Part shown: positions 9,730 through 58,889 of the stretch, piece after piece
How the letters are laid out: each line of letters begins with the position of its first letter
Numbering within the stretch: the first letter of the stretch is position 1
Made by a program: the position numbers and the translations under genes
Assembly: GCF_002234675.1 (NCBI RefSeq)
Contig: NC_019870.2
Coordinates: 5,154,485 to 5,218,484, forward strand
Direction: 5' to 3'
Origin: Oryzias latipes
Taxonomy: Eukaryota > Chordata > Actinopteri > Beloniformes > Adrianichthyidae
Length of the DNA: 64,000 bases
The notes under the pieces: model-generated
Told to the model about the DNA's origin: nothing
What the model saw: only the letters and a program-made list of their open reading frames with translations
The model's database searches: none

Positions 9730-10360
9730 CCTTTGAAGCCACTCCTTTGTGCTGGAAGATCCATCCATGTTCCATTCTCAATGCTCTCAATGATGGAAGA
9801 AGGTTTCCCCCAAATTCTCACTATAAATGGCCCCATTCATTCTTACCCTCAAATGGATCAACCTTCATACTCCTTTTGCAGAAAAGCAGCCCCATAGCAT
9901 GATGTTTTCACCCCCATGCTTTAAAATGGTGTTTTGGGAATACAATTGCACAGGCTGGTAGTGTGGTATTAATACCTTTTCAATTATTATAAAGGTCAAG
10001 ACGATGTCATGTGTTACTATCATAACCTTTGTGACTGTGGTGCCAGCTCTCTCCAGGTCATTAACCAGTTCCCCGGTGTCATTATGGGCTGTTTCCTCAC
10101 TGTTCCAGATCATTTGAACCCCAGGTGGAGGGAGATTGTAAGTGAGCTGCTTGCTTATTGGTTACCCTGAACAATCCCAGTCTGGTTCAGGTGAATATTT
10201 TTGTTCCTGGAGTCCTTTGACAGCTATTTGGTCATGATGGAGAGGTTGCAGTCTGACTGTTTAAAAGTGTGGACAGGTGTTTTTTAGACAGATAACCAGT
10301 TCAAACAGGTGACATTAATAGTTGAGCTTCTTAAAGAAGTAGTAACAGGTCTGTGTTGCT
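9730..10360 (-). mobile_element. Decayed Tc1-like transposon fragment
   Basis: Minus-strand translation gives broken transposase pieces: a HGGENIMLWGCFSAKG block (about 9865-9930), a piece matching the Tc1 GELVNDLERAGTTVTKVMI region (about 10010-10090) and ALRMEHGWIFQH (about 9755-9790). The blocks are frameshifted and interrupted, so it is not functional. DNA at 10240-10340 resembles Tc1 5'-region sequence also seen at 30440-30570. Confidence 0.75.
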
Positions 10361-11917: not shown

Positions 11918-24365
<12,448 letters not shown>

Positions 24366-29539: not shown

Positions 29540-30735
29540 CATAGCAGATGGGCATCTACATAAAAAGACTTCATCCAATTAGTGAAAGATGTGAAGGGGT
29601 CCAAATATCCATTCCATTCCTCCATGCAGATCTCCTCCAGAGCAGTGATGTTTTGGGGCTGTCGCTGGGCAACACAGACTTTCAGCTTCCTCCAAAGATT
29701 GATACTGGCTAGGCCAGCCCAGGACCTTGAAATGCTTCTAATAAAGCTATTCCTTCATTACCCAGGCAGTGTGTTTGGGATCGTTGTCATGCTGAAAGAC
29801 CCAGTAATGTTTCATTTTCAATGCCCTTGCTGATGGAAGGTTTTCACTCAAAATCTGATGATACATGGTCCCATTCATTCTTTTCTTTACATCAGTCATC
29901 TTGATCCCCTTGCTGAAATAAGCCCCAAAGCATGATGTTTCCACCCCCATGCTTTGCAGTAGGCAAAGTGTTCTTTGGATGCAACTCAGCATTCTTTCTC
30001 CTCTAAACACAACAAGTAGAGTTCTTACTAAAAAGTTCTATTTTAGTTTCAACCTCTTCTAGATCATCCAAATCTAAAAACCTTTGGACAGGCATGTACA
30101 TGTATTGGCTTTAGCAGGGAGACACATCTGGCACTGTAGGATCTCGGTCCCTGGCGGTGTAATGTGTTACTGATGGTAGCCTTTGTTGCTAGGGTCCCAG
30201 CTCTCTGCAGGTCATCCACTAGGTCCCCTCGTGTGGTTCTGGGATTTTCGCTCAGCGTTCTTGTAATCATTTTGAGCCCCAGATGGAGAGAGATTATCAT
30301 TTGTCTTCTTGAATGTCTTCCATTTCCCAATAATTGCTCCCACAGTTGATTTCTCATCACCAAGCTGCTTACCTTTTGCAGATTCAGTCTTCCCAGCCTG
30401 GTGCAGGTCAACAATTGTTTCTGGTGTCCATGAACAGTTTTTTGGTCTTGGCCATGGTGGAGTTTGGAGTGTGACTGCATGAGGTTTTGGACAGATGTCT
30501 TTTACATAGACAAAGAGTTCACACAGGTGGTATTAATACGGGTAACGAGTGCAGGACAGAGGATCCTCTTACAGAAGAAGTTACAGGTCTGTCATACCCA
30601 GAAGTGTGGCTTATTTGTAGATGACCAAATACTTATTTTGCACCATGATTTGCAAATAAACTATTTAAAAATCAGACAATGGGATTTTCTGGCTTTTTTG
30701 CCTCATTTTGTCTCCTACAGTTGAGGTATATCTAT
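29540..30735 (-). mobile_element. Decayed Tc1-like transposon, nearly full length
   Basis: Minus-strand translation gives ordered Tc1 transposase blocks: an ATGGCCAAGACCAAAAAACT start near 30455, the helix-turn-helix region with frameshifts, RTTRGDLVDDLQRAGTLATK (about 30170-30240), ISNTLHRQG, then [14 protein letters not shown] and [11 protein letters not shown] (about 29770-29880). Several frameshifts and stops break it, so it is inactive. Confidence 0.85.
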
Positions 30736-33425: not shown

Positions 33426-33959
33426 GCTGAATTCGTGTTCTTGAACAAACAACCTTTTTTGATAAATGCAAGATTTTTCGAAACTGTCCTGTTTAGACAA
33501 ATTTATTATCGCACATCCATTTTGTGCATATTCATAGTCAAGAGTTCCTGAGTTCCAGAATCACAACATCTCAGATATTCCGCAAGCCCCGCACCATGTT
33601 AGAGATGAACCTCTGCAATCTTGAAAAATCTGTGAAAAAGGTAAGACTTTGTTCAATAGCAAAATACCAGAACCTCTTGATTAGGCATCTAGTGGTGAAA
33701 TAAAATTACTCTTTAAACTACTAATTAATTTCACATTTGTAACTCTTCACCCATAACACACAGACTTAGTTTTGGCTCTTTATTTGGACTTTTTCCGTTT
33801 GTTTTCCTGCATAAAAACTTTACTAATGGATTCACTGAATCCAGATGTGCTTCTGCAGCCACGATGACTGCTGGATTTTTCTCTCCTCCCAGTTTGAGTC
33901 ACTATTTCTGCTCAGAGGACAAAGTTATGAATCCACGAAATGAGAAGTTTAAGAAGTAA

Positions 33960-34700
33960 AGAAAAAAATGGACCGGATAACTTTAACAACGGGGTAGAGG
34001 GGGGAAAGGGGGTCCGGCGGGAGTGGATACTAAAAACATGCAGGGGGGAGACTTCCTCGGGGCCTTCAGGAGTCAGGGACAGGGACTTGTAGGAGCTGCG
34101 GACGCGCCATGGATTCGGCAGCGGCGTTTCCCCCCAGTCCCATTGATTTGTATATGAAAACATAGCGCGTTTCTTCTTCTCCCCCCTTCTGGGTTCTGCT
34201 TCTGAGTGATCAGCTGATGAAGAGACTAGCAGCACGCCGCTATGCTGGTTTGCTAATTCTCTCCCCCACAGCTGCAGCCGATCCTGCGCGCCAGCCTGCA
34301 GACTGCAGCCAGGTAAATATGCCCTTTCCATCTTCCTGCTCAGGCTCGGGATTCGGCCAGGGTGCACGGGAAGAGATGGATAAAATGTGCGCGCGCGCGC
34401 ATGGGAAAGAGCGCGTGTGTTTATGTAAGGGCAGGGAGAGGGAGTGTGTAAGAGAGAAAGATGAGGGTGGGTGGGTGCCAGATTAGTCAGGGAAGAGGCA
34501 GACTTGTCAGGAGATAGCACACGCTCGGAGCCGCACGCGCACCCCTGACACCGCGCGCTGGCGCATGCAGTCAATCAGCTGTGTCACACTTCTTTGAGGA
34601 TTACCCTCCAGTATTCTGCTCCAGCCCCCCCGGAGAGAGTCGCGGGGCTTTCAAAGGACGATGTTTTTGTGGCACTTTCCCTCGATGCTGATCATCCTCG
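33960..34700. promoter_or_regulatory. CpG island, likely promoter of the smarca2-derived gene
   Basis: An abrupt rise in GC and CpG content in otherwise AT-rich DNA, with GCGCGCGCGC at about 34390 and many CGCG and CGC motifs. It spans the candidate first exon (ATG 34217, donor at 34313). No other CpG-rich stretch of this size occurs in the window. The 220-codon frame antisense to it (34574-33912) lacks domains and is a product of the GC-rich composition. Confidence 0.65.
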
Positions 34701-37700
34701 CTCGCCATTATAGTCGTAGTTTTTCTTGCTGCAACAAACCGCATGTCTTTTTGTTTTGTTTTTTGTTTCTGCAGCGCGACCCTGCATGATTGATGCATCA
34801 GTGTTCTGCCTTTTTTTCTGTTGCTGCGAGCATGCTCATCTTTCTGGCCTCTAATTGCCTTTGTGGAGATTACAGGCTGCTGCAGATATTTGGGGGGAAA
34901 GCTGCAGTGAAATGGCTGAAAGTAGCTGATTGTAAAGCATCTCGCACATACTGAACAATCATGCTTGTCCTTTTGTATGCATGAAGTAAAAAGGGGAAAA
35001 AATGCGTTTGGAATTGCAGATTATTTTTACATGGAAAGTGCTTTTATTGAAATAAATATCTTCAAGTTTTAGAGCGTGTTCAGCAACCGTGACATTTATT
35101 TTGGAACACAAAAAAGATTTAGTATTCAGGAGAAAAGGTTAACTTTGGCCACCCATGAAATTGTTTTTAAATTATAAATATTTAACTGCGTATCAATTGG
35201 CAAATAGACAACAAATATTAAAAAATTGAAAAATGATCCTGCATAACTCAGTTCATGCAGTTTGGATAAAGAAACTGCCATTCAGGATCATACAGGAACA
35301 GTGTTCCTGTAAGGATCAGTCATTGTTTTTCCATTGTTTGCATTCAGGTCCATTTCTGCTGTCCGTCTTCATTTCATGACTCAGCTGTGTCTTTCATTTC
35401 AATTAGTCCACATCAAAGTTTCTCTTTTTAGGTTTTCTCCTATTCAGGTTTTACATTTGTCAGGGACTGGTGGCATACAGGACCCAATATGCCGGTGACA
35501 AACTAAAACATTTAATAAATAAACTGAAACATGAAGAAAAAAAAAACCATGGAAAACAAAGAGGTGACAAGGCAGAACAGATGACCTGAAAACCAGACAC
35601 TCATATAGGCTTAGGGCAATTAACTGAAGTGAAGACAGCTGAGGATCATGATTACCCTGAAACTGATGTGACTGACTGGGCAACTCAGAACATGACCAAA
35701 ACATAAAAACCAAACTAAAACACAGAACCCTCACAATGTTTTATTTTTGTTATTTTGCGCATTTCATTTCATTTCCTTTCAGGTTTGTCTAGCCTCCAAC
35801 ATTTGGGTCATCCACAACCACATGTTCTTGAGACTGCCTAATGTATTTCTATTGAAATACATAAAACTCGTGCACATGTATTCATTGAGTTTTTTCTCTA
35901 AATATTTTGACACTCTTAACCATATAGTTACTTTATTTAAAACTGAAACCTATTCTTCTTTGAACCCAAAAATTGCAACAACAATAGAACTCTAATTGGA
36001 TTGTCTTTTAGGAGTCCCACAAGGGTTTGTCTCGGGACTGCTGCCTTTCTTCATTTACACATAATGGTAGAAGCCATTTCAAATGTGATTCCATAAAACC
36101 ACCAACAATTACAATATTTTCAGATAATAATAATTGGTCCAGATCATTTCAATAAATCAAATAAATATGAACAACCAATTAATACACTTCTGCAAGTGAC
36201 TGACAGGTTACATTTAAGAGTTTTAAAGGCCACAATTAAGCAGAAACAGAGTGAGAGTTGTTTCATAAAAAACAGGAGGTACATTTTAATAATCAATTCC
36301 AAGTCAAAGATAGATAAGTTAGTAACAGTAACAATAAAATGAATTCACTAATGAGGAGGAGAGTAAACAGAGGAGATGTGCATAGTAAGACAGGTAATAT
36401 CATACTTCCTCTTCACAATAGGCAGTAAAGTGTGACATAGGGATGGGGTAGAATGTAAGTTTGTGTAAAAGCTTGATAAACTATATAGGAAATGCTTTAA
36501 ATGTATGGGGCTCATATTACAGTTTCTTTTCCAAGAAGAAGAAATCTTCCAAATCATCATTTGGAGCAGTGTTTGCCTGTTTTCAGCCAGTGCATCAAAT
36601 GACAGAATGAGTTCTGTTGTGGTGGTTCTCGGGATCAATGTGAGGTTTCGGTCAGTGAACTCCGACCTCTTATTGGTTTGGTTGAAGGTGATGACTCGGA
36701 CTGTCAGCTCCCATATTTAAGATCAGTTGAACAACACTGGCTTCTTCTGTGTCAGCGTTTAGAAATGTTCGGTTAAACTTATCCCTTTAAGATGGGCTCA
36801 GACTGAGGATCTATCAGTTCCAACAGCAGAACATCCATCACATTTTGCTGTTTTAGGGTCTGGTGACACAGCTGAAATGAACTTACAAACCTTTACATTC
36901 TACACAAACTGATATTTTCACTGCACTGATAGGGCGACAGTGGCTCAGGTGGTTGAGCAGGTCGGCCAACGATTTAAGGATCGGCGGTTAGATCCCTGCC
37001 CCCTCCAGTCAACTATCATTGTGTCCTTGGGCAAGACACCCCAGCACCCTGCCTCCAGTGTGGCTCCGCTGGGGTGTGAATGTGTATGAATGTCCCGGTG
37101 ATGGTCAGAGGGGCCGTAGGTGTGAACTGGCAGCCACGCCTCTGTCAGTCTGTCCCAGGGCAGCTGTGGCTACATTAATAGTTACCATCACCAAGTGTGA
37201 ATGAGGAGTGAATGTATAATGGACACAATGTAAGCGCTTTGAGCGACTGGAAAAGCGCAGATAAATTCAACCCATTATTATTATTTTTATTATTATTATT
37301 ATTAACATGTTATATTGGGGTAGTGAGGAGCTGTAAGATAGCAGGAGAGTGTTAACATAAAGCTCTCAGCAAGGGGGGTGGAGTTGCTCCACACCAACAG
37401 TCCTCCCCTCAACTTAGAGGTAAATTTCAAATGAACTTATGCCGCGCCACATCAACTATGTACTAGAATTTGAATTGATTTAACCTTAAACCAACATTTT
37501 TACAACTAAAAGACAATAGATCAAAAGATGATCGGAGTGGGACTTCAATAAATCCTGATGATCCACTCCTTTCTTTCAGTAATTAAATAAAGTGATGGTC
37601 TTGAAGTCCCCTTGCTCGAGCAAAGGACAGGGGTTTTACTGCTAGAATTGCAATATAAATTACTTCTAAGCACAGACTTCAATAAAAATGCCTGATGAAT

Positions 37701-40700
37701 AAAGCCCAGCGTTTTTGGGTTTTTTTTGTTAAATTTGACAATCCAGCTGTCGTGACTTTTGTAAGTTTCCTCCAAGTACATCTCATTTTCTTTACATCTG
37801 ACAACCAGTCATGGGACCATTAGGCTACATTAAAGAAAAATGTTTTAACTGAAAAATAAAATGGCCTGAATGACTCAAGGATTCTTTAGTAACTTTATGT
37901 CAGTCATCTCCACATGAGAGATAATAAAAAATGTGTTCAAACTTGTTCTGGCTGCTTTCCGTTTAAAAGCTGGACTTGCTGGCCTTTACCAACTTGAATG
38001 CCAGCAGAAAGCATGCCGTGGCTTTTTTCTCTTTAACTGCATGCTAGTATAATTGATTGATTGATTGAGTGATTGATTTCTGTTTATTTCAAGCATTAAT
38101 TGTAGACAAAACAAGAAAAAAAATCGCACACATTTATCAAACTTATTACAAAACAGATTTAAAAAAAGACAAACTTAAGTCACATTTCATTCCATAAATA
38201 CAGTGAACATTAACTAAGTTGATAAGGATGATTAGAGTAATGATAAAATAGAACAAATTGTAAAGTGGATTAAGAAAGACCATTATTAGAGAACAAAGCA
38301 AACTGCACATTTAAAAATAGTGTTTTGATAATTGTTATGCAGTGCATATGCAATATTTTTGATAAGATCAAACCTTATTTTCAAAGCACTTTTCTTACCA
38401 AAGCAGCCCTAAGTGCTTCACAGGGTTAAAAGATCAGTCAAAAAACAAGAAAAAAAAGCTTCGGCTTTGAGCATTCTGGGCTACCATACATCGATTTATA
38501 TCTGGCTTCTTGGCCGTTCTTCTGTCCCAGAAGAACCCCAAAAGGTCAGAAGCGGCAAAACCTGAGGCATTTCTGAGGGTCATTAAGGCTAACCTCAACT
38601 CTAAAACACCAACAGGGAATTGAGGTCACCACATCAATAAACCGATAGAAGCTTTGGACAAAGAATCTAAATAATTTAACTGCTGTACTGTTTTTAAAAA
38701 TATTTTTATTTATTTTTGAACATACTTTTTCATAGCGCTTCTGGCTTTTGTTTGTAAAATATTACCAGGAACTACAAAAGAAAACTAGAATTTTTGCTAT
38801 AATAAAATCGTACTGTTATTGATTAATATGCAATGTTCCTTCACAGTAAAACAAAACAACTAAATAAATACAGAACTAAATGATTTTAGGATTCACATTT
38901 TAAACACAAAGTAGTTAAAATGAGCTGAATATGTAAAATAATGAATTGATCCACATAAAAGAGAAGTGACCTGGCTATGTCTATATGTCTGGAGTCTCTC
39001 AACACCCCCCCTCACACGCTGCTTTCTCCATTTGCAGCCTAAAGCAGGAGAGAACGGTTCCCTGGAGGACATGGAGGACGACGTGGGCCTGAAGAAGCGT
39101 AAAGGTGATCATCCAGTTGAGAAGGAGCTGTTGGCGGGGCAAGAAACCAGCGAAAAAGTGAAAAGGAAGAGAGGGCGCCCACCGGCTGAGAAACTGCCCC
39201 CAAACCCACCAGAACTCACCAGAACGCTGAACATGCTGGTGGACATGGTTATGAACTACAAGGATGGGTGAGGGCCCTTCAATGCTTGAGTCAAAAATTT
39301 GCGGAGAAACCGCAGATTCTGATGGTTCACCAAAACAGGAATTCCAGATTAGACCTGAGTTTCCAGTTTTAGTGAGATGGAGGTCAGTGCTCCGTAAAGA
39401 CTGTCAGGATCATCAAACCATGTTTTAATAAACCAGGTGCTTCTGGCAAACTGAAGCTCATGAGACCTTCATGTCCACAGGAATTATGTGATGTTTGTTT
39501 GGATCATAAACTGTTTAATTAGTTTAGTAAAGCCTTAGTCACATGCATCCTTATGGGGGTTGACCCGTACAGTTGTCCGGCCGTGGAGGGTTGTAGAAAG
39601 GAGCGGCCACGTCTTAAAAGATGCGCAGGTGTCTTGCAGTTCTCTTGAGGCTCATGCGGCCACCTCAGGGGACATCATGATAATGGAACGTACCATTGTC
39701 TCGCGAGCGGTAAGTGTATCTTGAAGTAGTCGGAAAGCGAATGTAAGTTGGATGCACTTATGACTTAAAGGTGATGTGGTTGTACGTTGGCCGTATGCCA
39801 CGCTGTAGTCATCAATACTTGCTACTGACAGTGCGCGAATGCTGCATGCACAGGGTGTGCACGTGATACTGTATGACTTCCTAATTTCTAACAGTGACAC
39901 TGCACCGGGAGGAGTGTTTGCTCATCACTTCAACAGCACTAATAGGATAACAGTCATGCACAGTGCGCACGATTTCGGGTGGGAGAGCTTTTACAGAAAT
40001 ATAACATTTTTACAACGTGCCTGCGTCAGCCCTTGCGTGTTGCATAGGCGTTCGCTCTACAGGCTCACCAACAACTTTTATATTTTGTGCAGATCACGTG
40101 TGTACTCCATACTGGTTGGCCCATTTATTGCCCGTGGACACAGTCCGTCTCCACCAGTACCAGAAATTGAAACCAAGGGTTCAGTAACGTCTCCCAGACT
40201 TGTCTGTTTCCAAAAATAAGTCTTTTGAGTAAAGGAAAGTGGTGTTGAGTTTCAAAAAACAATCCTGATTGTTTGAGATGTTTTTTCACCATAGATTTGA
40301 AATGGTTTATGGCTTCTTGTTGAAGAGAATTTTTGATCAAGCTGCTAAAAAAACATGAAAAAAAACTTTAGTTTTGGCCTAGGTAGGGTATTTTCACCCG
40401 CTTTAGTTTTGTTGAGGCCTTTGTAGCTGTGACAAACCCTCTTTTTGTGTCTCTTTTTTGGCCTTGTGTGTTTTTATAAAGAAATCATCCAACTTTGTTA
40501 ATCTTTTAAGGACAAATGGCTGAAGCAAAAAAAATCTACCTGAGCCTGAAGCTAAAAAGAACTTTATACCTAAATACAGTATATAGTTCAAAACCTTTTT
40601 GAGTATTCATCTGTATTTTTCTGCAAGTCTAAGTGTTCTAAAAAACGTCTTTTCACCAACATTTTGGTGCTGTTTCAGTCTAAAAGGAGTACATGTGGAA

Positions 40701-43700
40701 GCTGACCCTGTTCTTGCAGGTTGGGACGACAGATCAGTAAAGGTTTCGTGCAGCTTCCCTCCAAGAAGGAAGTGCCAGAGTATTACGAGCTGATCCGGAA
40801 GCCCGTGGACTTCAGGAGGATCAGGGTGAGTGCGACTGCATGGACTCAGGATTTAAACGCACAACTCATTCTGTGACCTGCAGTTAACCTGCAGTTTTCT
40901 ATGCAGCACGTCAGGTAACGCTTTCTTTTACAGCACAGTACTTACAGCGTAGTTAAGTTAAATTAAGGTAATCCTCTTACATATGGTGAATACCATGAAA
41001 CACACATAAACTTGGTAAGTAAATAGAATGTAAATCCTGGGCTTTTTTCACAGTACTTCAAATGTAGTTTCTGTTTACCTTCTATCTTGTTACACATGGT
41101 AAATACCATGAAACATACAATGAGTGCAAACATAAAGTCAAGGTACTTCATTTGTACTTGCCTTGTTCTTACATGTTGTAAGTACTACAAAATATACATT
41201 TACGCAACATGTACCCAGTAGGTACTATTTAAAAACCCAGTGTGTACATCAGGGGTGTCAAACATACGGCCTGCGGGCCGTATCCGGCCCGTCAGGTGGT
41301 TAAGTCCGGCCCACACATGAAGAGTAAAAATCATAAGGATGTTTAAAAAAGAAAGCAAGTTTCTAGTCCATTCCTGTGGCGAGTTATGATTTTTTTAAAG
41401 AAAAGGGGGAGCAAAGGAAAAGCAAAGCAGGTGAAAAAGCATATCTCTGCACGTGCCAAAAGCGAAACCTAACAGCTCTGCGTCTGGGTAAGATGCACTT
41501 TGGTTCCATGTGAGACTCACCACTGTTATCTTGATATAAGGATAATCAGTATTGACACAATAATGACCAAAATGTTGTCAAAAAGTGAAGTGGAGTCAAG
41601 AGCTTTCCAGGAAAAATAATTTTTTTTTTTTGTGTGTGTGTGTATACAAAGCTGAATGCAAAACTCCCATGCTTGATATGTCATCAACAGGTCGCAGTGT
41701 TCAAGGAATACAAAATTCAGCACCACTGAGACTCACCATACAGAAAAGTTTCACCATTTGCAGTTAAGAAAAGATAAGCATTACCAACTAGTAGCCGGAC
41801 TGAAAAAACAACCATTTGCATTCACTGCAGCATTGACATCAGTGATGGAGCAATGACAGCTACCTTTTTGTAAACACGTTGGTGCAAACATCCAAACCCT
41901 TTTCAGAGGTGAACTTGTGCCCCAAAAAGCAGTCGACCTTTGCCAACATGAGTCTGTCAAGGATTACGATTCCAGATCCAACATTTCTGAGGAGACTTGG
42001 ACGCCAACTGAAGGAATCCAGTCATTTATTGCATTTTCGGTTGCTATTTTTGAAAACACCAACATCACAGATATATACAGCTGTGGATATTTATTAAAGA
42101 TGTTAAAAAGACCGTCACAGCTGAGTTTGTTGAGTTGATGGATAACAGCAGCTGATAAAATAGTCAGCTCTCTAGTTACTGTGCTGGACAATGTTGTAGT
42201 GAACTGGTCATGTGATGTCAGTCTGGTCACTGATGGCGCCCTATCAAAGGTCAGGAAGAAGGCAGGTGTTTTTTATCACAAAATTCAGGCAGAAACCAGG
42301 AAAACATTCTTGGAAATTTCATTGTGTTTTGCACAGTTGAATGACAGTAAATGTGTTTCTGCACAGGATTTGAATCCTGATATGGACGGTCGTGTGAAGT
42401 TTAAGGAGAGAAAGGGAGGATAAATTCTTATGTTCAAAATATTAGCAGGTTTGATTTAGTTTAATTTTTAATGGTTTGGACATTTACATTCAAGGCACGG
42501 TGTTTCGTTTTTTTCTGTAGCCCCTTTTGAGTTTATTATTGGGATTGCTTCAGTGTCAGATGTCAAATATTCAGTCCGTATAAAACTGAATAGACCAACT
42601 TTCTTTGAAGTGAAATTAATTTTATTTGAGATCCATTGGCTCCAAGTGATTAGGCTACTATGTTGGTTGAGGCATTTTTTTTCCAACTGAGTAAAAAAAC
42701 AAAAATAAAGCTGTTATTTTGCTTTTATGTTACTAATCCGGCCCACTTGAGATCAGACGGGCTGACTTTGGCCCCCGGACCAAAATGAGTTTGACACCCC
42801 TGGTGTACATCATAAATACCAAGTAGGTATATTATAAATACCCAGTAGTTACCACATAAGTATGAACCAAATAGTACCACATAAATACACAGCAAGTATC
42901 ATGTAAGTACCAAGTAGACACAAAAAAGTACCATGTAAGTAACCAGTGGGTCCGACAAGAAGTTAAAAAAAGTACGATTTAAGTACCCAGTAGGTCCCAT
43001 GATAAGTACTATGTAAATACCCTGTAAGTACCCATTAGTTTTAAAGAAAGTACCATGTAAATACCACTTAACTAAGCTTTAAGTACTGCACTGTAAAAGA
43101 AAGTGTTGCCTAGAAAATTATTTATGATGAAGATGATTCATTGTTTGTCGTGTTAAACATCTATACTGGATGAAATTTAAAAAAAAAATAGTAATCCAAA
43201 TGATGAGCAAAGATTCAGTCCTGCTTTAAAAATAGTAAACTGAAATTTTCTCTTCGAGGATTAAGTCCAATTCCAGATTTTCATAATAACATTGTTATTA
43301 AACAAATTACTACTTTTTAAGATTTTTTTCTTAGTTTTAAGAAGTTTTTATTTTATTTTATAAAAGAACCAGTGACATGCCTAAATACTTACAGTCTGTC
43401 TTCAGTTGTGAAGCACAGAGGTGGCTCTATTATGGTTTGGGCAGCTATTGTAATACAGAGTTAGCTCAAATGTGATCATCTTCAGGGTTTACGTATTCTG
43501 TGTTGATCGTTTCGAAATGTTGATCGTTTCGTCAGGTCTAAACTACATTTATTGTTAGTTTTAAATAAATTTTTGTTTGTCACACATAACCAGACTTCTT
43601 CAGCTTTACAAAAAAAAACACACACAACGGAATAAGATTATAAATTAATCAAGTGAAATATCATAATTTGACTCCTAGATTCCAAAATTTAACTCTTGAT

Positions 43701-45789
43701 CCCAACACAGAACATTTTTTAATAATTATGGCCATGAACCAGATATTAAATGTAAGGATAAGAATCTTTGGTTTCCTTTAGCTCATTAGTGTTTATTTCT
43801 TTAAAATTTCCACACTTTTTTCATCGAAATTCTGTAATAGAATGCCATCTTTTTAAAAATGAAACTTGATTTTTGCTTTAGTCAGATCATTGTGTGAACC
43901 ATTATTTTTTATGTTTTTTTTTTCAAGTAGATAGGACACAATCGTGATTTTTCCTAGTATTTTAAACCTTCATCCTGACTGCTTCATTGTAAAATGGCAC
44001 ATTCTGCTTCTGCTTTTTAGGAGCGTGTGCGTAATCACAAGTACAGAAGTGTGGAGGATTTGGAAAAGGACGTTTTCCTTTTGTGCCACAACGCTCAGAC
44101 TTACAATCTGGAGGGATCCCAGGTGAATCTCAGGACATTTTGTTATATTCAGGCAATAAGAGAACCTCTCAGAGTCTATTTTGTTGGCGTAAATAGGTTT
44201 GAATCTCAAAGCGAGAAGGGACATCTCATGCTTTGGTTATCTGTATGTATGTATGTATGTGTGTGTGTGCGTGCCTGTGTGTGTGCGTGCGTGCCTGTGT
44301 GTGTGCGTGTGTGTCAACCAATGCAGATCTATGAGGATTCAATTGTCATCAAGTCTGTTTTCACGAGCGCAAGGCAGAGAATCGTCACAGACGAGGAACA
44401 GAAGGAGACCGTTGGCGGCAGTCACAGCGATAATGGAGGTGCAGCTGAAGACCAATTTGTTCCATCAGCAGGTGAGAGCTACATTTGGAAAAAAACCAGG
44501 TCCCAGTTATGCATTTCCATGTCTCAACAGAGACTTATTTCACAATACTTTAAACATCTTTCCTGCAGAAGATTAAATTGCTGATTATTGGAATAAGTTC
44601 AGTTAAAACTGAAGAGCTACGGGTATAGAAGTATTATTATAATATTTAATTAACTATATAAAAGTTGTGGCATTAAAGAAACAACTAAATAATATTCAAC
44701 AATGCAAGAATAAAAAGAAATATATAGGTGACCCAAGCTAAAAGCATACATAAAAATAACTCAGTAGTTTTAAATAAATAAATAAAAAGACAAAAACCTA
44801 AATTGGTTTAAAAAGCTGAAAGCATCTAAAATGTGAAACGTATAAAAAATACTTAAAGATTATGTATGGAATTATTTTAGCAAGTCATTTTTGATAAAAT
44901 ATGGTTCACAAATGACCTTTCTGATTAAAGAAATGTTTGTTTAATTTAAAAAAGACAAAGGATAACAAGTTTAAAAAATATGCTAACTTGACGAACATAA
45001 AAGAAGAACATTAACAAGTAAATAAAATAGGATTTCAATTTTAATTTAGCTAAATATACTTTAGGAAAGTCAAATTTACCTAAAAGAAACATTAAACAAT
45101 GCTGTTAAAAGACAACATACTAGATTAATAGAACAGAAAGTGTCCTGAAGTTATAAAACTGCTAAAGAAAGAAATATTAACATACTGACTAAATGCCAAT
45201 AAAACTGAAAAGAACTAACTCAAACTATATGAATATTGACTGTAAAATATTAATGTACATGCCAAATATGAAACTACTGAAGCAATTGTATAAAAAAAAG
45301 ATAAACGCTGAATAATGTTTGATACAGTTCACAGAAATTAAACAAAATTTGTTAAACAAATTGCAAAATATATGTGCTAAATCCTTATTAACCAAAAAAG
45401 AATTCTATAAAAGCTTCTTGCTTTTTATAGTTTAAGTCTGTAACTGAAAAATAATTATAAACATATTCAGTAATTAATGGAGCTTTTAATGATTAAAACA
45501 ATTAAATAAGGAAAAGCAGCCAAGTTTGAAATAAGAATAATACATAAAATTGGGCAAACTATGCTTGATTTGTGAAGCACTGAAAAAAACGCGAATAATT
45601 GAAAAAAAACAGATTTTTTAAAGCTTATTCTTAGCAGTAGTCAGATTAATTCATTGTCTTGTTTTTCATCTTGCAGTGAAACTTCTGCCAGTTCAGATGA
45701 AGGAAAGAAGCAAAAACACCAAAAGGCTGGACAACGATGTAGATGGCGATGAAAACCCAGAAGATAACGCCTCAAAAGATGAAGGCTGA
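34217..45789 (+). CDS. smarca2: Short smarca2-derived bromodomain protein without ATPase domain
   Basis: SMARCA2 (BRM) is a SWI/SNF chromatin-remodelling ATPase; its C terminus carries an acetyl-lysine-binding bromodomain. Coding exons: candidate first exon 34217-34312, then 39038-39267, 40720-40825, 44021-44122, 44327-44471, 45677-45789. Phases agree; total 792 nt, 263 aa. After a new 32-residue N terminus comes [13 protein letters not shown] (SMARCA2 EDGNLEEMEEEV), an AT-hook-like KRGRPPAEK (about 76-84), and a complete bromodomain with [16 protein letters not shown], the acetyl-lysine Asn at 173 (CHNAQTYN) and [12 protein letters not shown]. The tail is short and lacks the acidic and SVKVKIKL segments of full SMARCA2. 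No SNF2 helicase motif is visible in the 10 kb upstream, and a complete kank1 gene precedes it. It resembles the short human SMARCA2 isoform made from an internal promoter. The bromodomain exons are firm; the first exon is less certain. Alternative: 33596-33640, also in phase. Confidence 0.85.
35455..35735. mobile_element. Probable dispersed TIR repeat
   Basis: Begins TGTCAGGGACTGGTGG and ends ACACAGAACCCTCACA, giving partly matching inverted ends (TGTCAGGG against TGTGAGGG). The interior (AAAACATTTAATAAATAAAC, GACTGACTGGGCAACTCAGA) is non-coding. It lies in intron 1 of the smarca2-derived gene. Family unknown. Confidence 0.35.
35745..36150 (+). mobile_element. Decayed LINE reverse-transcriptase fragment
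   Basis: The translation shows [19 protein letters not shown], like the RT motif (S)KAFDTVNH. After a stop it shows [17 protein letters not shown], like GVPQGSVLGPLLFxIY, the RT signature of L2/Rex-type non-LTR elements. Stops and frameshifts make it inactive. Confidence 0.65.
36930..37305 (+). mobile_element. tRNA-derived SINE
   Basis: An A-box-like TGGCTCAGGTGGTTGAGCA and a B-box-like GGTTAGATCCC lie 30-50 bp apart near the 5' end, as in tRNA-derived SINEs. Then come CCTTGGGCAAGACACCCCAG, the LINE-like 3' end GTAAGCGCTTTGAGCGACTG and an (ATT)n tail. The open frame at 37019 is just SINE sequence. It lies in intron 1 of the smarca2-derived gene. Confidence 0.75.
39630..40075 (+). repeat. Unidentified dispersed repeat, copy B
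   Basis: Matches the reverse complement of 19560-20036 in order along its length (for example CCACCTCAGGGGACATCATG and TGCTGCATGCACAGGGTG blocks). It lies in the intron between smarca2 exons 39038-39267 and 40720-40825. GC-richer than its surroundings, with no coding sign. Confidence 0.55.
40913..43111. mobile_element. TIR element with AAGTACC minisatellite interior, split by a hAT
   Basis: The left terminus (AGGTAACGCTTTCTTTTACA, continuing with CAGTACTTA-AGC-TAGTTAAGT) is inverted at the right end (43050-43111). The interior on both sides of the hAT insertion is a degenerate array of AAGTACC, CAGTAGG and ATGTAAGTA units. Non-coding; lies in the large bromodomain intron (40826-44020). Confidence 0.65.
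41250..42802 (+). mobile_element. hAT (Charlie-like) transposon with perfect 8-bp target duplication
   Basis: CAGGGGTGTCAAAC at the left and GTTTGACACCCCTG at the right are perfect inverted ends. GTGTACAT flanks both sides (41242-41249, 42803-42810). The interior holds broken transposase pieces related to ZBED/GTF2IRD2-like hAT proteins, such as [20 protein letters not shown] (about 42215-42275). At 1553 bp with stops it is non-autonomous. Confidence 0.9.
44242..44314 (+). repeat. TG/TATG/TGCG repeat occupying the 3' splice-site tract of a bromodomain exon
   Basis: A TG-rich run ends 12 nt before the AG acceptor at 44325-44326, in an intron of only 204 nt. No ordinary pyrimidine tract is present. 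UG-rich RNA binds TDP-43 and CELF proteins, so it could influence splicing of exon 44327-44471 (145 nt; skipping shifts the frame). Confidence 0.8.
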
Positions 45790-46427
45790 ACCGAGGGACC
45801 CTGCTTTTTTTTTTTTTTTTTTTACATTTTTGATCATGTCTCTGCTTTATCTTTTTTCATTTCTTTTTTTAAAATCAAAAACTATTTGAGAAAAAAAAGT
45901 GGACCACACCAAAAAAAAGCAATTACCCAACTTCTTCCCAATGATTCACACCTCTTTGAGTTACATGTCGCTGCACAAAGTGCTCGTCCGTTTCTGTCTT
46001 TTACTATAATTATACTATATGGTTTATCTGCCTCTGTCCCTGTGATTGCTTCTGCAGATATTATGTAAAATGCCACTTCCACAGACGGTTTTTAACAAGC
46101 ATATTTGATTGTATGATATGCCTTTTTATGTCCTGGGAGCATTAAATTAATCTGGTCTCCAGAGCAGCAGCTGGTAAAAAAAAAAATGTAAAGGATGCCA
46201 GAATTAAAGCACACACAAAAAAGTTTGTAGAAAATGTACAATAATGAAAACATCCTCAGATGTGATTTAAAGATTAAGCATAGTGAAATAAAATCAATGA
46301 AATATGTGAAGATTCTAAACACTAAATAGGTCAAAAAGGCAGTCAAGTGGATAACATCTTTGCTGTTTGAGGAGGGAAGTGGAAGATGTCACTGTTAAGA
46401 CAATCCCTGGAAACGTGTCAGTTCCAT

Positions 46428-46433
46428 AATAAA
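46428..46433 (+). terminator. Candidate polyadenylation signal of the smarca2-derived gene
   Basis: AATAAA about 640 bp after the stop codon (45787-45789). Another AATAAA lies near 46288 and ATTAAA near 46141, so the 3' end could be earlier. Confidence 0.35.
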
Positions 46434-51502: not shown

Positions 51503-54500
51503 CTAAATCTGTGACACCTTTTCTAAATCCTCCATGATTACATCCTGGTCTCTTCCATTGTTCTCTCCTGCCAAAGACTGTCCCTCTTTACGTGAGTACT
51601 TTCCATTTTGTACTAACATTGATCCAGCTCTGGAGCCAGGCCTGTTTATGCTGGCAGGCTGGACTGGGAGCACAGCGTTCCCTCTAATCCGATGGGAGAA
51701 GGTCTTCTGGCGCACAATATCAATGGAACAAAGCTGGAACTTGAAAGCTGCCTGAAAGCCTCTGCGGAAGTTCTCGTTGAAGAATCCGTAGATGATGGGG
51801 TTGACACTGCTGTTGAAGAAGGCCAACCAGTGAGCAAAGGGGTACACATAGATATTAATGACACGATACTGGTGCTCAGTCAGGCGGGCGTAGTCGCTTA
51901 GCATCATCAGAGTCCACAGAGGCAGCCAAGACAAAACGAAGAGCAGAGCAACGATAACAAGCATCATGATCACCCGCTTCTTCTTTCTTGAAATTGTTTG
52001 CCTTCCGTCCATGCTCAGTTTGTTGGCGCTGCTGCTCTCTCCGGTTGCACTTCCACTGCCCCTCGTGGGGGGAATGGTGGTCTTGAAGAGGGTGAAACCA
52101 ATTCGGGCATACATGATTACAATAAGATTCAGAGGGGCGAGGTAGATGTTAGCAAAAAGAACCGTGGTGTAGATTTTACGCATCTCCTGACTGGGCCAAT
52201 TCTCCCGGCACCAGTAGAAGGGGCGGGTCTTGCTCCTGTGGTCCACAACTATTCGTACCGTTGGCTCTTCTGTGACCTGCAGCATCACCCCTGATGGACA
52301 CATGATGAACAAGGCCAGGACCCAGATGATGACAATGATCATCTTTGAGGTGCCAATGGTCAGCTTCTGTCTGAAAGGGTAGACGATGCAGCGAAACCTA
52401 GCACAGGAAGTAAACAAAAGACCATCTGTTTTTTCAGAATAAACCGCCTCTAAGGGTTAAAACTGATATCTGCTTCACAACAATAGTAAAAAAAAATCAT
52501 TTAGATTCACTCTGATATTTACTTCTGCACCATGGTTTTCTTACAACTAAAATTAGTCTGCAGTTCACATCAAATCAAATTAAACTATTTTTGACAAAGA
52601 ACTTTTTATACTTTTTAAACACCTAGTGCTTTAAAATGGTAATTGGTGTATACCTATATGGTGCTTATTAACTTTGTTGAATGCCCAATGGGCTGCTTTA
52701 CAGGTACAGCTCCATTGACCCATGCAGACACTGAACACTGGCAACAACCTGTGGCCACCAGGAGCAATGTGGGGTTGAGTGTCTTATCCAAGGACACTTT
52801 GACACAACCTCATTTTGTTTGATTATTCTCCAAATTTTTGCTAAATTGTTCCACATTTCTTTTTTTTCTTTAAAGATTATATGTTTCATTGATTTTTCTG
52901 CATTTCTTTTCCATAAGTCAAAAATTCTCTGGCTGCAGACATCATCAGCCAGAAACAGAAATGACGCAACTTACCCTTACCATAACCTTACCCTTACCCT
53001 ACCTTACCCTAACCCAAAAGTATTCAGAACTTTAGAAAAACTTTATTAAAGCTTAAAACAAGAGACACCATAACTGTTAGGATTGCCATGTAAAAAAACA
53101 AAAACACTTTTTTTTAGCAGTATGGGGGTACTCCAGTTCTGGACATTTATGTCTGTAGCCAGGTGCTCCTGGAAATTCCGGCAATGTTAAGAAAAAGGCC
53201 CCAAGACTAACACAGAGAAATAAAATTCCCATTGACTGTATGTCTCGTTTACAATGCCTGGAAGACACGAATGACATTGGTAATCATGTCTCCATGCCTG
53301 GTTCATAGGATCATTCGGAGACTCTCCTAGTATGGTGAGCTTCACCATCTGCTGCAGGAGCTGCGTCTGAATGACAGCCGCTTTTAGCAATACTTCCCTT
53401 TCTCTGTGTGTTTCTCAGTTTTATGACTTGCTCTCCCACATTAGTCCGAGGAGGGAAAAATAAAAATAAGAATAACATTTTTATTATTTTCTCAATGATA
53501 AGAAAAATATTATGAAGTTAAAGAGAACGATGAGATTCTTCTCCACGTTGGTTTTGGACTCCACCCACTGATCAAACCATCAACATTACTTAGGCCAAAG
53601 CAGAGTCCCTGATCGGTTGATGTGGTGCAAAATACATATTTGAACTCTGGATGTGCAAAACATGCTGCAGGATATCTAATTGCATCTGTACATTGAAACT
53701 GGACGACCCTGACAAGCGAATCACGTTCGGTGGGAACACAGCTTTACACAATCCCCTCTGACATCCATGTTTACCTGCCCAGTTTGACAGATTAAATAAT
53801 GTCAAACTACAATTTTAAAAGTATTTCATTCCTGAAATTGGTAATACTACTTTGGCAAATGATCCTCCTTGTGAAGACAGCTGTAATATGTTTTACCTCT
53901 AGCTCGAAAGGAAAAGGAACCACTCATTTCAGAACCTTTAGAATCAGCAAACCTACTTTGTAGATCCAAGAGGGATCTAGTAGATTTTTGTCCAGAGAAT
54001 GGAACAGTGCTGGATCTATTTCTTAAACTGTACCAAACCATCTAAAATCAATCATGGGTGCACTGATCCTAATTACCACCTTAGGAAATGGGCCAAATGC
54101 AAATGTGACGGCCATAGAAATACATTAACCAGACTAATAATCTCTGTTGTCGGCCATATGATTCTGAACAGGGCGAATAAAGTCTGAGGTCATGAATCTA
54201 TGACAATAAAGGACTAGACATGATTGAATCCTTTTTTAGTTCACCAGTCAGCACGCCCCTAATTATGGATGAATTTTAGTTTTAATACAATCAGAACACA
54301 GTCAGTGAACCAACCCTAACCAGATGCTTAAAAATAACCGTGATCAGATGGTGGAACAGTGCTTACCTGTCAACTGCTATGGCAACCAACGTGAACACAG
54401 AAGCTGACACCGATATCCCTTGAACCATACCACTTAGTTTGCACACAATGCTGCCAAATGGCCATCCTGCACAGAGAGGGGAAGTGTAAAAGTATGATGA

Positions 54501-54877
54501 AACCAACAGTGGCCCACATCTTCCATCCATTTCCTGCCAGAACATTTACCTGTTATGATGTTGTCCAGCAGCGTGGTTGGCATGCAGAAGATGCCCACAA
54601 GCAGGTCGCTGATGGCAAGGTTTAGGATGAACAGGTTGGTGACAGTGCGCATGTTCTTGCTGCGGAGCACAATGAAGCACACCACACCGTTTCCTACCAT
54701 GCACACCACGAAGATCAGCAGGTAGGAGACGGTGAAGACTGCAGCCACCGAGGGTTTATGGAGGTAAAAGTCCACGTAGGTGACATTCTGGTGGATAAAA
54801 GGCTTTTTCTGCTGGTCTGAGGAATTATCAGGGTCCCAGTCCTCCATGCTGGAGTTAAAAACTAGACGTTCTGTCAT
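51503..54877 (-). CDS. npffr2: Neuropeptide FF receptor 2-type GPCR, three coding exons
   Basis: A class A GPCR for RFamide peptides at the plasma membrane, known in the family to couple to Gi/o. Coding exons: 54877-54550, 54466-54367, 52397-51503. Phases agree; 1323 nt, 440 aa. The N terminus has three N-glycosylation sequons (N8, N18, N31). TM1 begins near residue 44 with [18 protein letters not shown] gives Asp2.50; VCKLSG and FYWCRENW carry the ECL1-ECL2 disulfide cysteines; AVDRFRC is the DRY-type motif. [28 protein letters not shown] with LSDYA at the top of TM6, and [16 protein letters not shown] complete the fold. TM5 and ECL2 wording and the VIMEDLEK tail are closer to human NPFFR2 (VMEELKE) than to NPFFR1. 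The start is the first ATG after an acceptor-like CCTCATAG; a 5' non-coding exon probably lies upstream. Intron 2 is only 83 nt. Paralogue number in fish is not resolved. Confidence 0.93.
52660..52805. mobile_element. SINE/LINE-tail-like fragment in an npffr2 intron
   Basis: CAATGTGGGGTTGAGTGTCT TATCCAAGGACAC is the well-known motif shared by several fish SINE tails, and GGGCTGCTTTACAGGTACAG precedes it. Short and non-coding. Confidence 0.45.
52969..53015. repeat. Degenerate interstitial telomere-like repeat
   Basis: Six or seven short units close to CTTACCC, TTACCC and CTAACCC in about 45 bp. This resembles the vertebrate telomeric repeat (CCCTAA) with several variant units. It lies within the last npffr2 intron. 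Confidence 0.6.
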
Positions 54878-57415
54878 AATGAGACCTATGAGGAGGAGAG
54901 ACACAGTGTTACGAACTATGTGGGTATTAAGTCCATGATATAACTGGGAACAGTTACTGGAAAATATATTAGCATTGATTGTTACCACATGAAATGAAAT
55001 ACCCCCCCCAAAATGTCAATAACTGAACTGCTGGGTTTTTTAATTGAATGTGCTGACGTGGCCAAGAGCATGCCCTATAACATTCAGGCAATTTACAGAA
55101 CAAAGCATATTCAGTCCTCACCTCATCCATTCACACCTCTGTATCATTTTCACACCTCTGAAATCTGCTCTCTTCTCTTCAGGCAAGAATACATTATCAC
55201 TCATTTGTCACCCTTTGTGGAAATGTGGATAGTATTCGCACGTTTTTCTGCAAAATTACGATAACAAGATGTACCAAAAAATGTAAATTTGTCCAGCATT
55301 TTTAGAGGCACTGAATTCACAGTTCAAAGAGACCACTGAAGTGCTGAAGTAATGAAAGAAAACACTCTTAAGGAAATACAGGCACTTATTGATTCCCCAA
55401 AACACTGTTATTTTATGCAAACCGTCCACCAATCAAAGAGTTTTGTCCCGTTTCTATGGTACAGCAATGTAGGAAACCAGGATAAGAATAGTTTTAGCAC
55501 ATACAGAGCAGAACTGTCTGAAAATGTGTGTAAATACAAAGGGAGAGTTTAAAAAAACCTCATAGATTACTGTAAAAATCAAGAGACAATAACAGATTTT
55601 GCCCTATTTTAATAATTTAGCAGCTTGAAAATCTTTTTTCAAAATAAAATTCAGGTTTTTTCCATCAACAGAAGCCGCAGTAAAAATCCTTTTTGCATTT
55701 CATTTGTGCATTCTTACCCTTCAAAGTGCTATTTTTGAATTTTAATCCTTCCTTCTGTCCCTCCAGATGTCAGGTGTTTTTTTATGCAATAGAAATCCTG
55801 CTGTCTGAGAGCTGAAAGCAGCGCTCCTGCATCCCTAAGTGAAAGCCGGTACATCCACGCTGCGCGCTTGACAGGCAGAACTACTGCTGCATTTATAGAA
55901 GACAGAGAGAACACAGGACTCACATGGGAGAGAAGGGTTGGGTGCTGCACAGCCTAAGTCCATCATATCCCTCGTATGTGCTGTGTGAACTGGGTATTGT
56001 ACGGTTAAGGCAAAGGGGAAAAGAAACTAATCGCTTTTGTTTTACTTCTTACTTTGAGATCAAATCAGTAAACAGGTGCTGGCACTGATTTTAAGGATCA
56101 CATTTCAGTTTTACCAGGCAAGTTTTTGGTGCTGGACCCCAGTTGTCCATGTTTGCCCTTCATGAGGAAAATGGCAAAAATAGTCTGAAAGAAACCAAAA
56201 TAAAAACAAATTTTCTGTCTGTGTTGTGAAAACAGTTGGGTAGATTCAACAGTCAGCACCAACTCTGTCAGAAAGCCACAGGGAATTAGTTATATGGGAG
56301 ATGTGTGGTTTAAAATAAAACATCAAATTTACTTCCTACATCATATGAAAAACTCGTGAAAGCTTCCCCTTTAAAATCAACTTCTGCCTGTTAAAGTTGA
56401 GACGTTAAGATGTTTTTTTTAACAAAGTTAAACCCTTTTTTTGTTTAAAAATAAATGCGGATTTGGTCACATTTCCATCTTTAGAATTCAAGCATGTGGC
56501 CAATAGATAGAAAAATGAGGAATTTTATCTTTAGGTACCTACTAAATACCTCAAATTTGTGTGTTCAATTTGTTCTTAGAAATCAAATTTGTGAATTTTA
56601 GTTAAAAAATCTGGACAATAACTCACACCAAAGTCAAAATGTGTAGATGTTTAAAAACTGAAAGCTGTTCTGTTTTTGAAATAAATGAGAACATGCCCTC
56701 TAACGTTAAGCCCACTTGTAAGAATTAGCATAAATCTGCCAGCCTTCACTGCAAAAATTAAAATTATAAAAATTAAAATTTCCATAAGAAGCCTTTTTCC
56801 TATGCTAATTGGAAATGTGTAACAATGTAGCTAAATATATTAAAAAATTTAATGGGTTACCTTTACGCCGCATACAAAATAATACAAAAATTACCATTTT
56901 ATTTAAATAAAATTTACATGTTAAAGTGCTCATTGTAAAACAGTAATGTCTGTGTATTATGAAACTCAAATACACATCTGTGAAAGGCAACTTGATGAGT
57001 CAGAACATTGTGCGGAAAAAAGTACGCTAGAAGTACAGCCAGTATACTATTGACCATGTTAGTGTAGTGTAGGAAAAATACTCACTGAATACTTCTTTAG
57101 ACTAAATTTGAGCATTTTAAGTTTACAATACATAGATAGTGTATGAAAAGTAAACTTCAAGTATACTTTTGGTTCATTTTTAGTAAAGGCTACGTCAGGG
57201 CTGTGCAAGCTTCTTTGACTCGTGGGCCACAAAAGATTCTGAAATTTGACGGAAGGGTCTGACGCACGGAGCGTCTTGGTGACCCAACTCGTGTAAAAAG
57301 GAAAAAAATGTTGTCTGAACAACAAAAGCGTGCATTCATTTTAATTGAAATGTTATATTAAAAAAAAAAGAAATGTTATATCATATATAACATTATATAT
57401 AACATCATATATAAC

Positions 57416-57472: not shown

Positions 57473-57527
57473 CATCCATCCATCCATCTTCCTCCGCTTA
57501 TCCAGGACCGGGTCGCGGGGGCAGCAG
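57470..57527 (-). mobile_element. LINE 3' tail with (ATGG)n
   Basis: The reverse strand reads CTGCTGCCCCCGCGACCCGG, then GATAAGCGGAGGAAGATGG with ATGG copies. This is a very common fish LINE 3' end. It belongs to a different element from the neighbouring RLE-type ORF. Confidence 0.65.
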
Positions 57528-57529
57528 AC

Positions 57530-57552
<23 letters not shown>

Positions 57553-57626
<74 letters not shown>
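57553..57626. repeat. (GT)n microsatellite, about 37 units
   Basis: Uninterrupted dinucleotide array. Its translations (VCVCV or THTHT runs) produce spurious long open frames on both strands. Confidence 0.95.
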
Positions 57627-57628
<2 letters not shown>

Positions 57629-57639
57629 ATATAACAACA

Positions 57640-58889
57640 CCCCTCTCACCCTCCGCGGGTGGTTTCTCCTCCAAGCTCGGGTCCTCTACCAGAGGCCTGG
57701 GAGCTTGAGGGTCCTGCAGTATCTTAGCTGTTCCTAGCACTGCGCTTTTCTGGACTGAGAGGTCTGAGGTCTTTCCAGGTATCTGTTGTAACCACTCCTC
57801 CAGCTTGGGGGTTACTGCCCCGAGTGCTCCAATTACCACAGGGACCACTGTCACCTTCACTTTCCAGGCTTTCTCCAATTCTTCTCTGAGTCCCTGGTAT
57901 TTCTCCAGTTTCTCATGTTCCTTCTTCCTGATGTTCCCATCGCTTGGCACTGCCACATCCACCACAACGGCTTTCCTCTGTTCTTTATCCACCACTACAA
58001 TGTCTGGTTGGTTCGCCATTACCATCCTATCAGACTGGATCTGGAAGTCCCACAGGATCTTTCTTTCAGGTTCTTTTTCTTTTTTAACTTGTCCTGTCCA
58101 ACAGCTGGGCAGGCAGATGAGAGCTGAGGGCCTCTTGTGTTGGACATATTTTACTTTAACAAGAGGGGTTATAAATCTTCAGACATACCTCTGGAATAAA
58201 CCCCTTTTGTAATTGAGGCCAAACTTTATTAATTTCAACCATGTTTGAAAATCTTTGGTGTTGGACCGGACGGAAAAGGAAAGAAGGGAAGAAGAGAGAG
58301 GGATGTTGGAGAGGGGGGGGGTTAGGAGGGTGATAATAGGAGGGGAGGGGGGATAAGACAATGAAGCAGCATAAAGCAACAAGTTTACTGGTTGTTTATC
58401 CTTACGGTAAGGTTCAAATGCAGTACAAAAAGGGCGGGGCCTGTCCACACACACACTCAAATGTTATAAACACACCTGCTAGCTGCAGAAATGTCCACAT
58501 GTCAACATGTACACAAAACAGATAGTGTTCACACACGCATACTTATGCCTTTAAACCAACTAGTGTGAAATATTTCATTCATTCTATCACGCAAACTATT
58601 AGTGCAAAGGTGAGCTAGCACCTGTGCTCAGGTGAGTGTTTATGTTTTTCTAAAATAGATGGTGGAACGTGAAAAGAAGGAAGGAGAGTGCCCAGCCACA
58701 GTCCCACAGGATCTTTGCCCTCTCATTCTCTGCCACCTTTGGGGGTGTTTCCCATTTTGACCTTGGGGTGTCCAGTCCATAATCAGCACACATGCTCCTG
58801 TATATTATTCCAGCCACTTGATTGTGGCGCTCCATGTATGCTTTCCCTGCCTGCATCTTCCACCCTGCAGTTATGTTGATAGGCTGCAT
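57640..58889 (-). mobile_element. Non-LTR retrotransposon ORF C-terminal fragment, split by an insertion
   Basis: Two blocks of one reading unit lie on the minus strand: 58889-58701 (AGKAYMERHNQVAGIIYR through ERAKILWD) and 58062-57640 (resuming at KILWDFQIQSDRMVMANQPD, then VVDVAVPSDGNIRKKEHEKL, VVPVVIGALGAVTPKLEEWL, SVQKSAVLGTAKIL). I recall this as the C-terminal part of a fish LINE. The PD-then-VDVAVP pattern suggests a restriction-like endonuclease of the R2/NeSL type, which is inference. The end is frameshifted. Inactive. Confidence 0.75.
58063..58700. mobile_element. 638-bp insertion with a perfect 16-bp target duplication
   Basis: GTCCCACAGGATCTTT occurs at 58047-58062 and again at 58701-58716, exactly at the point where the LINE reading frame is interrupted. 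A 16-bp duplication suggests target-primed retroposition. The insert is G/A-rich in the middle (58265-58350) and begins near TCTTTTTTAACTTGTCCTG. Family not recognised. Confidence 0.75.

Follow-up and report, generated by a model that had tools for sequence, protein, structure and literature searches.

The bromodomain of SMARCA2 is a handle used by drug developers, and the mitf gene of fish is reportedly an example of the partition of isoforms between duplicates. Such partition is a known model, in which one duplicate keeps one ancestral isoform (PMC5306129, in its accessible part). For human SMARCA2, a table lists isoforms of 278, 254, 236 and 119 residues and counts the bromodomain as one of the domains affected; in the portion of the article available here, the authors consider that isoforms of this kind may lack activity or result from erroneous annotation (PMC1949830). 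The bromodomain of human BRM is described in the available sections of PMC5519978 as having a moderate preference for H3K14ac and as binding DNA jointly with the AT-hook. As for the genomic setting, the neighbours of the dmrt1-dmrt3-dmrt2a cluster of zebrafish include kank1a, smarca2, adamts3 and npffr2a (PMC7689362, excerpt), and a second kank1 arose through the teleost genome duplication (PMC4904190, excerpt). A bromodomain-only smarca2 gene in fish is described in none of the matches listed from the open-licence literature (titles and abstract starts), nor in the accessible parts of PMC10968829 and PMC9359700. Here we analyse a locus of Oryzias latipes that would encode such a protein. It lies in a window of 64,000 nt, i.e. 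the whole stretch of DNA that was analysed (C12:5154485-5218484), and the feature coordinates given below count from the first letter of the window.

Five exons on the plus strand join into a frame of 231 codons followed by a stop, with GT-AG at all four introns. The first of these exons (39038-39267) contains the AT-hook, the core of which is encoded at 39161-39196, and the probable start codon at 39071. Counted from an Ala codon it measures 224 nt, as in the smarca2 gene located on C9 (see below); its acceptor lies 6 nt upstream of the place used in C9 with the phase kept, and the two bases preceding the Ala codon are AA. The second exon (40720-40825), which encodes the first part of the bromodomain, has the same length (106 nt) as in C9 and in a related gene on C8, and the third (44021-44122) has the same length (102 nt) as in C9, C8 and a further gene on C1 and includes, at 44105-44107, the codon of the acetyl-lysine-binding Asn of the bromodomain. 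The fourth exon (44327-44471), covering the end of the bromodomain and the start of the tail, is 145 nt long versus 127 nt in C9. The last coding exon (45677-45789) runs through the position of the C9 donor. That is, GATAAC is followed here by six codons and TGA, its counterpart in C9 being GATAAC and then the intron start gtgggt, so that one 3′ intron and one exon seem to have been lost relative to C9 smarca2. This fifth exon has no tblastn match of its own; it is assigned from its frame, from the phase of its acceptor and from a brief resemblance to the end of the C9 exon. Hexamers resembling poly(A) signals, which are common by chance, follow on the plus strand at 46141 and 46203 (ATTAAA) and at 46287 (AATAAA), together spanning 46141-46292, with a further AATAAA at 46428.

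The encoded protein has an AT-hook followed by one bromodomain, the latter matching the Pfam Bromodomain model with 72 bits (E 4.2e-20). Against bromodomain-only PDB chains it scores 186-201 bits with SMARCA2 and 176-185 bits with BRG1. Long BRG1 chains reach 194-197 bits over a longer stretch, and the top of the PDB list is occupied by polybromo-1, whose 327 bits are the sum over six bromodomains, the best single one giving 75.5. The preliminary description of this DNA had read the five exons as the C-terminal module of SMARCA2, with AT-hook, whole bromodomain and acetyl-lysine Asn, and the open frame, the GT-AG introns, the Pfam match and the PDB scores all bear this out.

With a human SMARCA2 sequence as tblastn query, four of the five exons were matched and nothing else in the window fell below E 5, ATPase exons included. 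When 50 kb of flank was added (C12:5134485-5248484), these four matches recurred and nothing further fell below E 0.05. An SNF2 ATPase with its helicase C-terminal part, as would characterize a SMARCA2/4 remodelling ATPase, is absent from this region; of the traits of that family, the locus shows the AT-hook followed by a bromodomain. Upstream lies kank1 (approximately 13093-24217, plus strand), the ankyrin exons of which score about 269 bits with KANK1 and about 229 with KANK2, and downstream lies npffr2 (approximately 51506-55015, minus strand), which scores about 297 bits with NPFFR2 and about 242 with NPFFR1 and shows the 7tm_1 domain in both of its exons. The last recognised coding exon of kank1 is at 24128-24217. 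Both earlier statements on the setting, i.e. that kank1 ends ahead of the bromodomain exons and that no ATPase exon is visible, therefore stand. The window also contains sequences resembling mobile elements. A transposon-like insert at 41250-42802, which is hAT-like, is located in the intron between exons 40720-40825 and 44021-44122. It carries CAGGGGTGTCAAAC as a terminal inverted repeat of 14 bp, and its target duplication, GTGTACAT, is 8 bp long. The frames at 29750-30501 and 9868-10161 (-) resemble pieces of a Tc1/mariner transposase, and C9 has several similar pieces; the frames at 57501-58901 (-) resemble a retroelement, with about 93% identity over 112 residues to a stretch of C9.

In the assembly searched (734,051,031 bases, 25 contigs), a smarca2 gene of the full-length type is present on the minus strand of C9, from about 1,064,250 to 1,011,205; its matches extend from residue 75 to residue 1475 of the human protein. 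The gene includes the ATPase as well as its own bromodomain and tail exons, while some stretches are unmatched and the joined region holds 1000 N. Two further genes of the full type, located on C8 and C1, are SMARCA4-like, and each has its own 3′ bromodomain exons. The presence on another chromosome of a full-length-type smarca2 with its own 3′ exons makes a long intron or a misassembly unlikely. Nothing was found in favour of a split gene, with ATPase exons elsewhere truly joined to 39038, as the preliminary description had raised with regard to helicase exons. Against it are the separate 3′ exons of each of the C9, C8 and C1 genes; moreover, SNF2 matches on C12, among the best candidates listed, occur only at 27.57 Mb, i.e. 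22 Mb away, and the neighbours of the locus form a conserved block. We regard a split or misassembled gene as extremely improbable.

The conserved block is apparent from the gene order on C9, which is kank1 (1.222 Mb, minus strand), DM-domain genes (1.213, 1.176 and 1.157 Mb, minus), smarca2 (minus) and npffr2 (0.811 Mb, plus). On C12, kank1 (plus), the bromodomain gene (plus) and npffr2 (minus) match this arrangement in order and relative orientation. The genome has six DM-domain matches, of which none is on C12, the cluster being on C9 only. For kank1 (80% over 69 residues) and for npffr2 (79%), the best non-self match is on C9. Furthermore, the four introns of the C12 copy are at the C9 places, and the exon lengths from the homologous Ala codon are 224/106/102 in both genes, against 260/106/102 in C8 and 263/109/102 in C1. 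A retrocopy had also been considered as a source of the C12 copy and was ruled out by the four introns kept at these places. Unlike the C12 copy, the C9 gene has the ATPase and N-terminal exons, a KVKIKL tail and one more 3′ exon. The conserved neighbours and matching exon lengths identify the two regions as a duplicated block, the simplest reading of which is a pair from genome duplication, and the duplication probably dates to that of the teleosts. The evidence thus supports the view, already put forward in the preliminary description along with the suggestion to search for a second, full-length smarca2, that the C12 locus is a smarca2 duplicate cut down to its 3′ reader end, having lost the 5′ part with the ATPase.

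The parent gene could in principle have been smarca4 instead of smarca2. In the available part of PMC4904190, zebrafish kank1b is stated to have lost its neighbours and to be linked only with smarca4, a statement that would suit a smarca4 parent and that, as regards the duplicated block, does not demonstrate the same block in zebrafish and is a point against the duplication reading. In addition, of 10 ungapped diagnostic columns 2 are SMARCA4-type, 3 are SMARCA2-type and 5 are neither. The neighbours of the C12 copy, however, are kank1 and npffr2, its first exon has the 224-nt length of C9 rather than the 260 nt of C8 or the 263 nt of C1, SMARCA2 chains score higher, and identity over 120 residues is higher to C9 (92) than to C8 (85) or C1 (82). 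Over the same 120 residues, human SMARCA2 shares 112 with C9 and 90 with the C12 copy. In a tree built on 120 columns, the SMARCA4 genes fell on one side at 100/99 and the C12 copy grouped with C9 at 92/89, a fork that is below the star threshold of the tool, involves a long branch and is unsettled on a longer alignment. A smarca4 origin is therefore disfavoured by neighbours, scores and identity, with the diagnostic residues mixed, and we consider it highly unlikely. Gene names in other fish may bear on the locus as well. The available text of PMC9454494 names smarca2, smarca4 and smarca4l as members of the subfamily in tilapia, of which smarca4l could be of the C1/C8 type or the C12 bromodomain gene. 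The 'smarca4' placed beside zebrafish kank1b (PMC4904190, excerpt) may be the orthologue of the C12 bromodomain gene under another name.

Counting residues on an alignment of the C12 copy from the numbering of PMC5519978, the DNA-contact lysines K1450, K1451 and K1460 correspond to R, R and K. T1480 is kept, as are the R at 1366 in the AT-hook and the acetyl-lysine Asn (1482 by count). Two reader stretches are conserved, two contact residues are altered (L1436V and K1382E), and the KVKIKL tail is absent. The tail of the C12 copy is also less charged, with 17 D/E and 8 K/R in 66 residues, versus 33 and 18 in 84 residues in human. Judged from these residues, the reader half looks serviceable, with the motor absent.

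In the block that encodes the AT-hook and bromodomain (120 codons), differences between the C12 copy and C9 number 62 at third, 18 at first and 15 at second codon positions, and the codon comparison gives 46 silent and 28 residue-changing differences. Residue changes specific to a lineage number 24 in the C12 copy only, 2 in C9 only and 2 in both, an imbalance that reflects fast evolution of the C12 copy. In a codon model on four genes, in which synonymous change was saturated and several branch lengths were at the upper bound (so that the sign is safer than the size), omega on the branch of the C12 copy was 0.052 versus 0.019 elsewhere for the 120-codon alignment (not significant, LRT 1.45) and 0.051 versus 0.023 elsewhere for a 184-codon alignment (LRT 8.02, p 0.005). 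An omega of 1 on the C12-copy branch was rejected with both alignments (LRT 6.13, p 0.013 for 120 codons; LRT 15.14, p 0.0001 for 184 codons), the test being an average over the whole branch that includes the time as a full-length gene and in which selection before and after ATPase loss is inseparable. The phylogeny and dN/dS estimate that had been proposed as checks on the reduced-paralogue view hence gave a fork with C9 on 120 columns and a branch omega of about 0.05, with neutrality rejected over the branch as a whole.

A simulation of neutral evolution (20,000 runs per setting, substitutions only, no indels) was used for comparison, in which the open frame and all 18 splice bases were kept in 1.7% of the runs at 0.1 substitutions/site and in 0.055% at 0.2, and in none of the 20,000 at 0.3, 0.5 or 1.0. 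These survival rates indicate that a recent loss of constraint is possible, and a long-lasting one is not. They bear on the alternative that the locus is a young pseudogene or dying remnant, i.e. a 3′ end left over after the ATPase was lost, which drifts and has not yet been broken. Fast protein change, the lost tail and 3′ exon and the lack of a known transcript would agree with such a remnant, and the purifying selection could predate the truncation. Nevertheless, 231 codons are open and all splice sites are intact, an outcome whose neutral odds, 1.7% at 0.1 substitutions/site, become lower beyond, and the residue changes spare the pocket stretches. We therefore consider a remnant rather unlikely, and prefer the reading of a retained, reduced smarca2 copy.

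A promoter for such a gene may be provided by a CpG island at 34001-34750 (GC 0.56-0.57, CpG o/e 0.66-0.78). For the 500-base window at 34001, GC is 0.57 and CpG o/e 0.66, and for that at 34251 the values are 0.56 and 0.78, against a median CpG o/e of 0.39; one other 500-base window (51751) passes the same cut. Within the island lies an in-phase candidate first exon, perhaps untranslated (34217-34312, plus strand; 32 codons, phase 0, donor of 8.2 bits). Three donors in 33501-38900 score at least 8.2 bits, and only that of 34217-34312 has a phase-0 ATG frame of at least 20 codons. When the threshold is lowered to at least 5 bits, 4 of 26 donors have such a frame. Therefore, the island and the in-phase exon of the preliminary description both exist, but the in-phase exon alone is weak evidence. 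The context of its ATG at 34217 is weak (cagctgATGA), and a frame of 18 codons starts further upstream, at 34109, with an ATG in strong context. At 39071 the ATG has the context GACATGG and encodes the Met within LEDMEDDV, and we favour it as the better start. The predicted protein would then have 220 residues; translation of the candidate first exon would raise this to as many as 263. The region 33500-39037 was compared with its homologue in C9, an intron, as well as with portions of C8 and C1. The top hit, of 42 nt (E 0.003; 37021-37060), is unconvincing, and because CpG is abundant along the entire C9 intron, a counterpart of the island cannot be singled out there. The C12 island may be descended from an internal promoter, and the gene may be transcribed from it. 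Scans of a more general kind added little: none of the 32 pattern matches in a prokaryote genome collection was a relative, a loose DNA pattern was found 8 times versus 7.0 expected, i.e. at chance level and uninformative on the C12 gene, and a bacterial-type promoter scan was equally uninformative on it.

The start at 39071 has a parallel in human. Counted from the Met of LEEMEEEV to its C-terminus, human SMARCA2 comprises 236 residues, or 254 with an 18-residue insert, and the counterpart of the C12 start thus fits by length the 236-residue isoform in the table of PMC1949830 (available part). This equation is our own, and the table's entry of the bromodomain as affected and the doubts of its authors speak against it. 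The human short forms are isoforms of a full gene, whereas the C12 locus is a separate gene. Isoform partition between duplicates (functional sharing), including the mitf case, resembles the C12 case in that one duplicate retains one ancestral isoform, and differs from it in that the C12 gene loses the motor and retains the reader domain alone. By this analogy, the C12 locus may be classed as isoform partition after duplication.

Taken together, it is likely that the locus is a second smarca2 copy that was reduced to an AT-hook and bromodomain gene and does the job of a SMARCA2 short isoform. The teleost genome duplication would have yielded this second copy, the 5′ part with the ATPase would then have been lost, and what persists would be the 3′ part, a small gene encoding a 220-residue protein. 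This product would bind acetylated H3 and nucleosomal DNA that is AT-rich, would carry out no remodelling, and would in this way occupy or mark sites also read by full SWI/SNF. That it competes with or tunes SWI/SNF, as proposed in the preliminary description, is a tentative suggestion, and we are more doubtful still that it represents a teleost-conserved motorless BRM reader gene, a short isoform made permanent by genome duplication, which acts as a natural competitor and opposes or buffers full SWI/SNF where sites are AT-rich and acetylated. The function of a short SMARCA2 product is hard to test where its exons are common to the full-length protein. If the C12 gene is expressed, a single knock-out in fish would remove the short-form product and leave the ATPase untouched, the reader half would be open to study as a separate gene, and the locus would clearly exemplify how an isoform becomes a gene through genome duplication.
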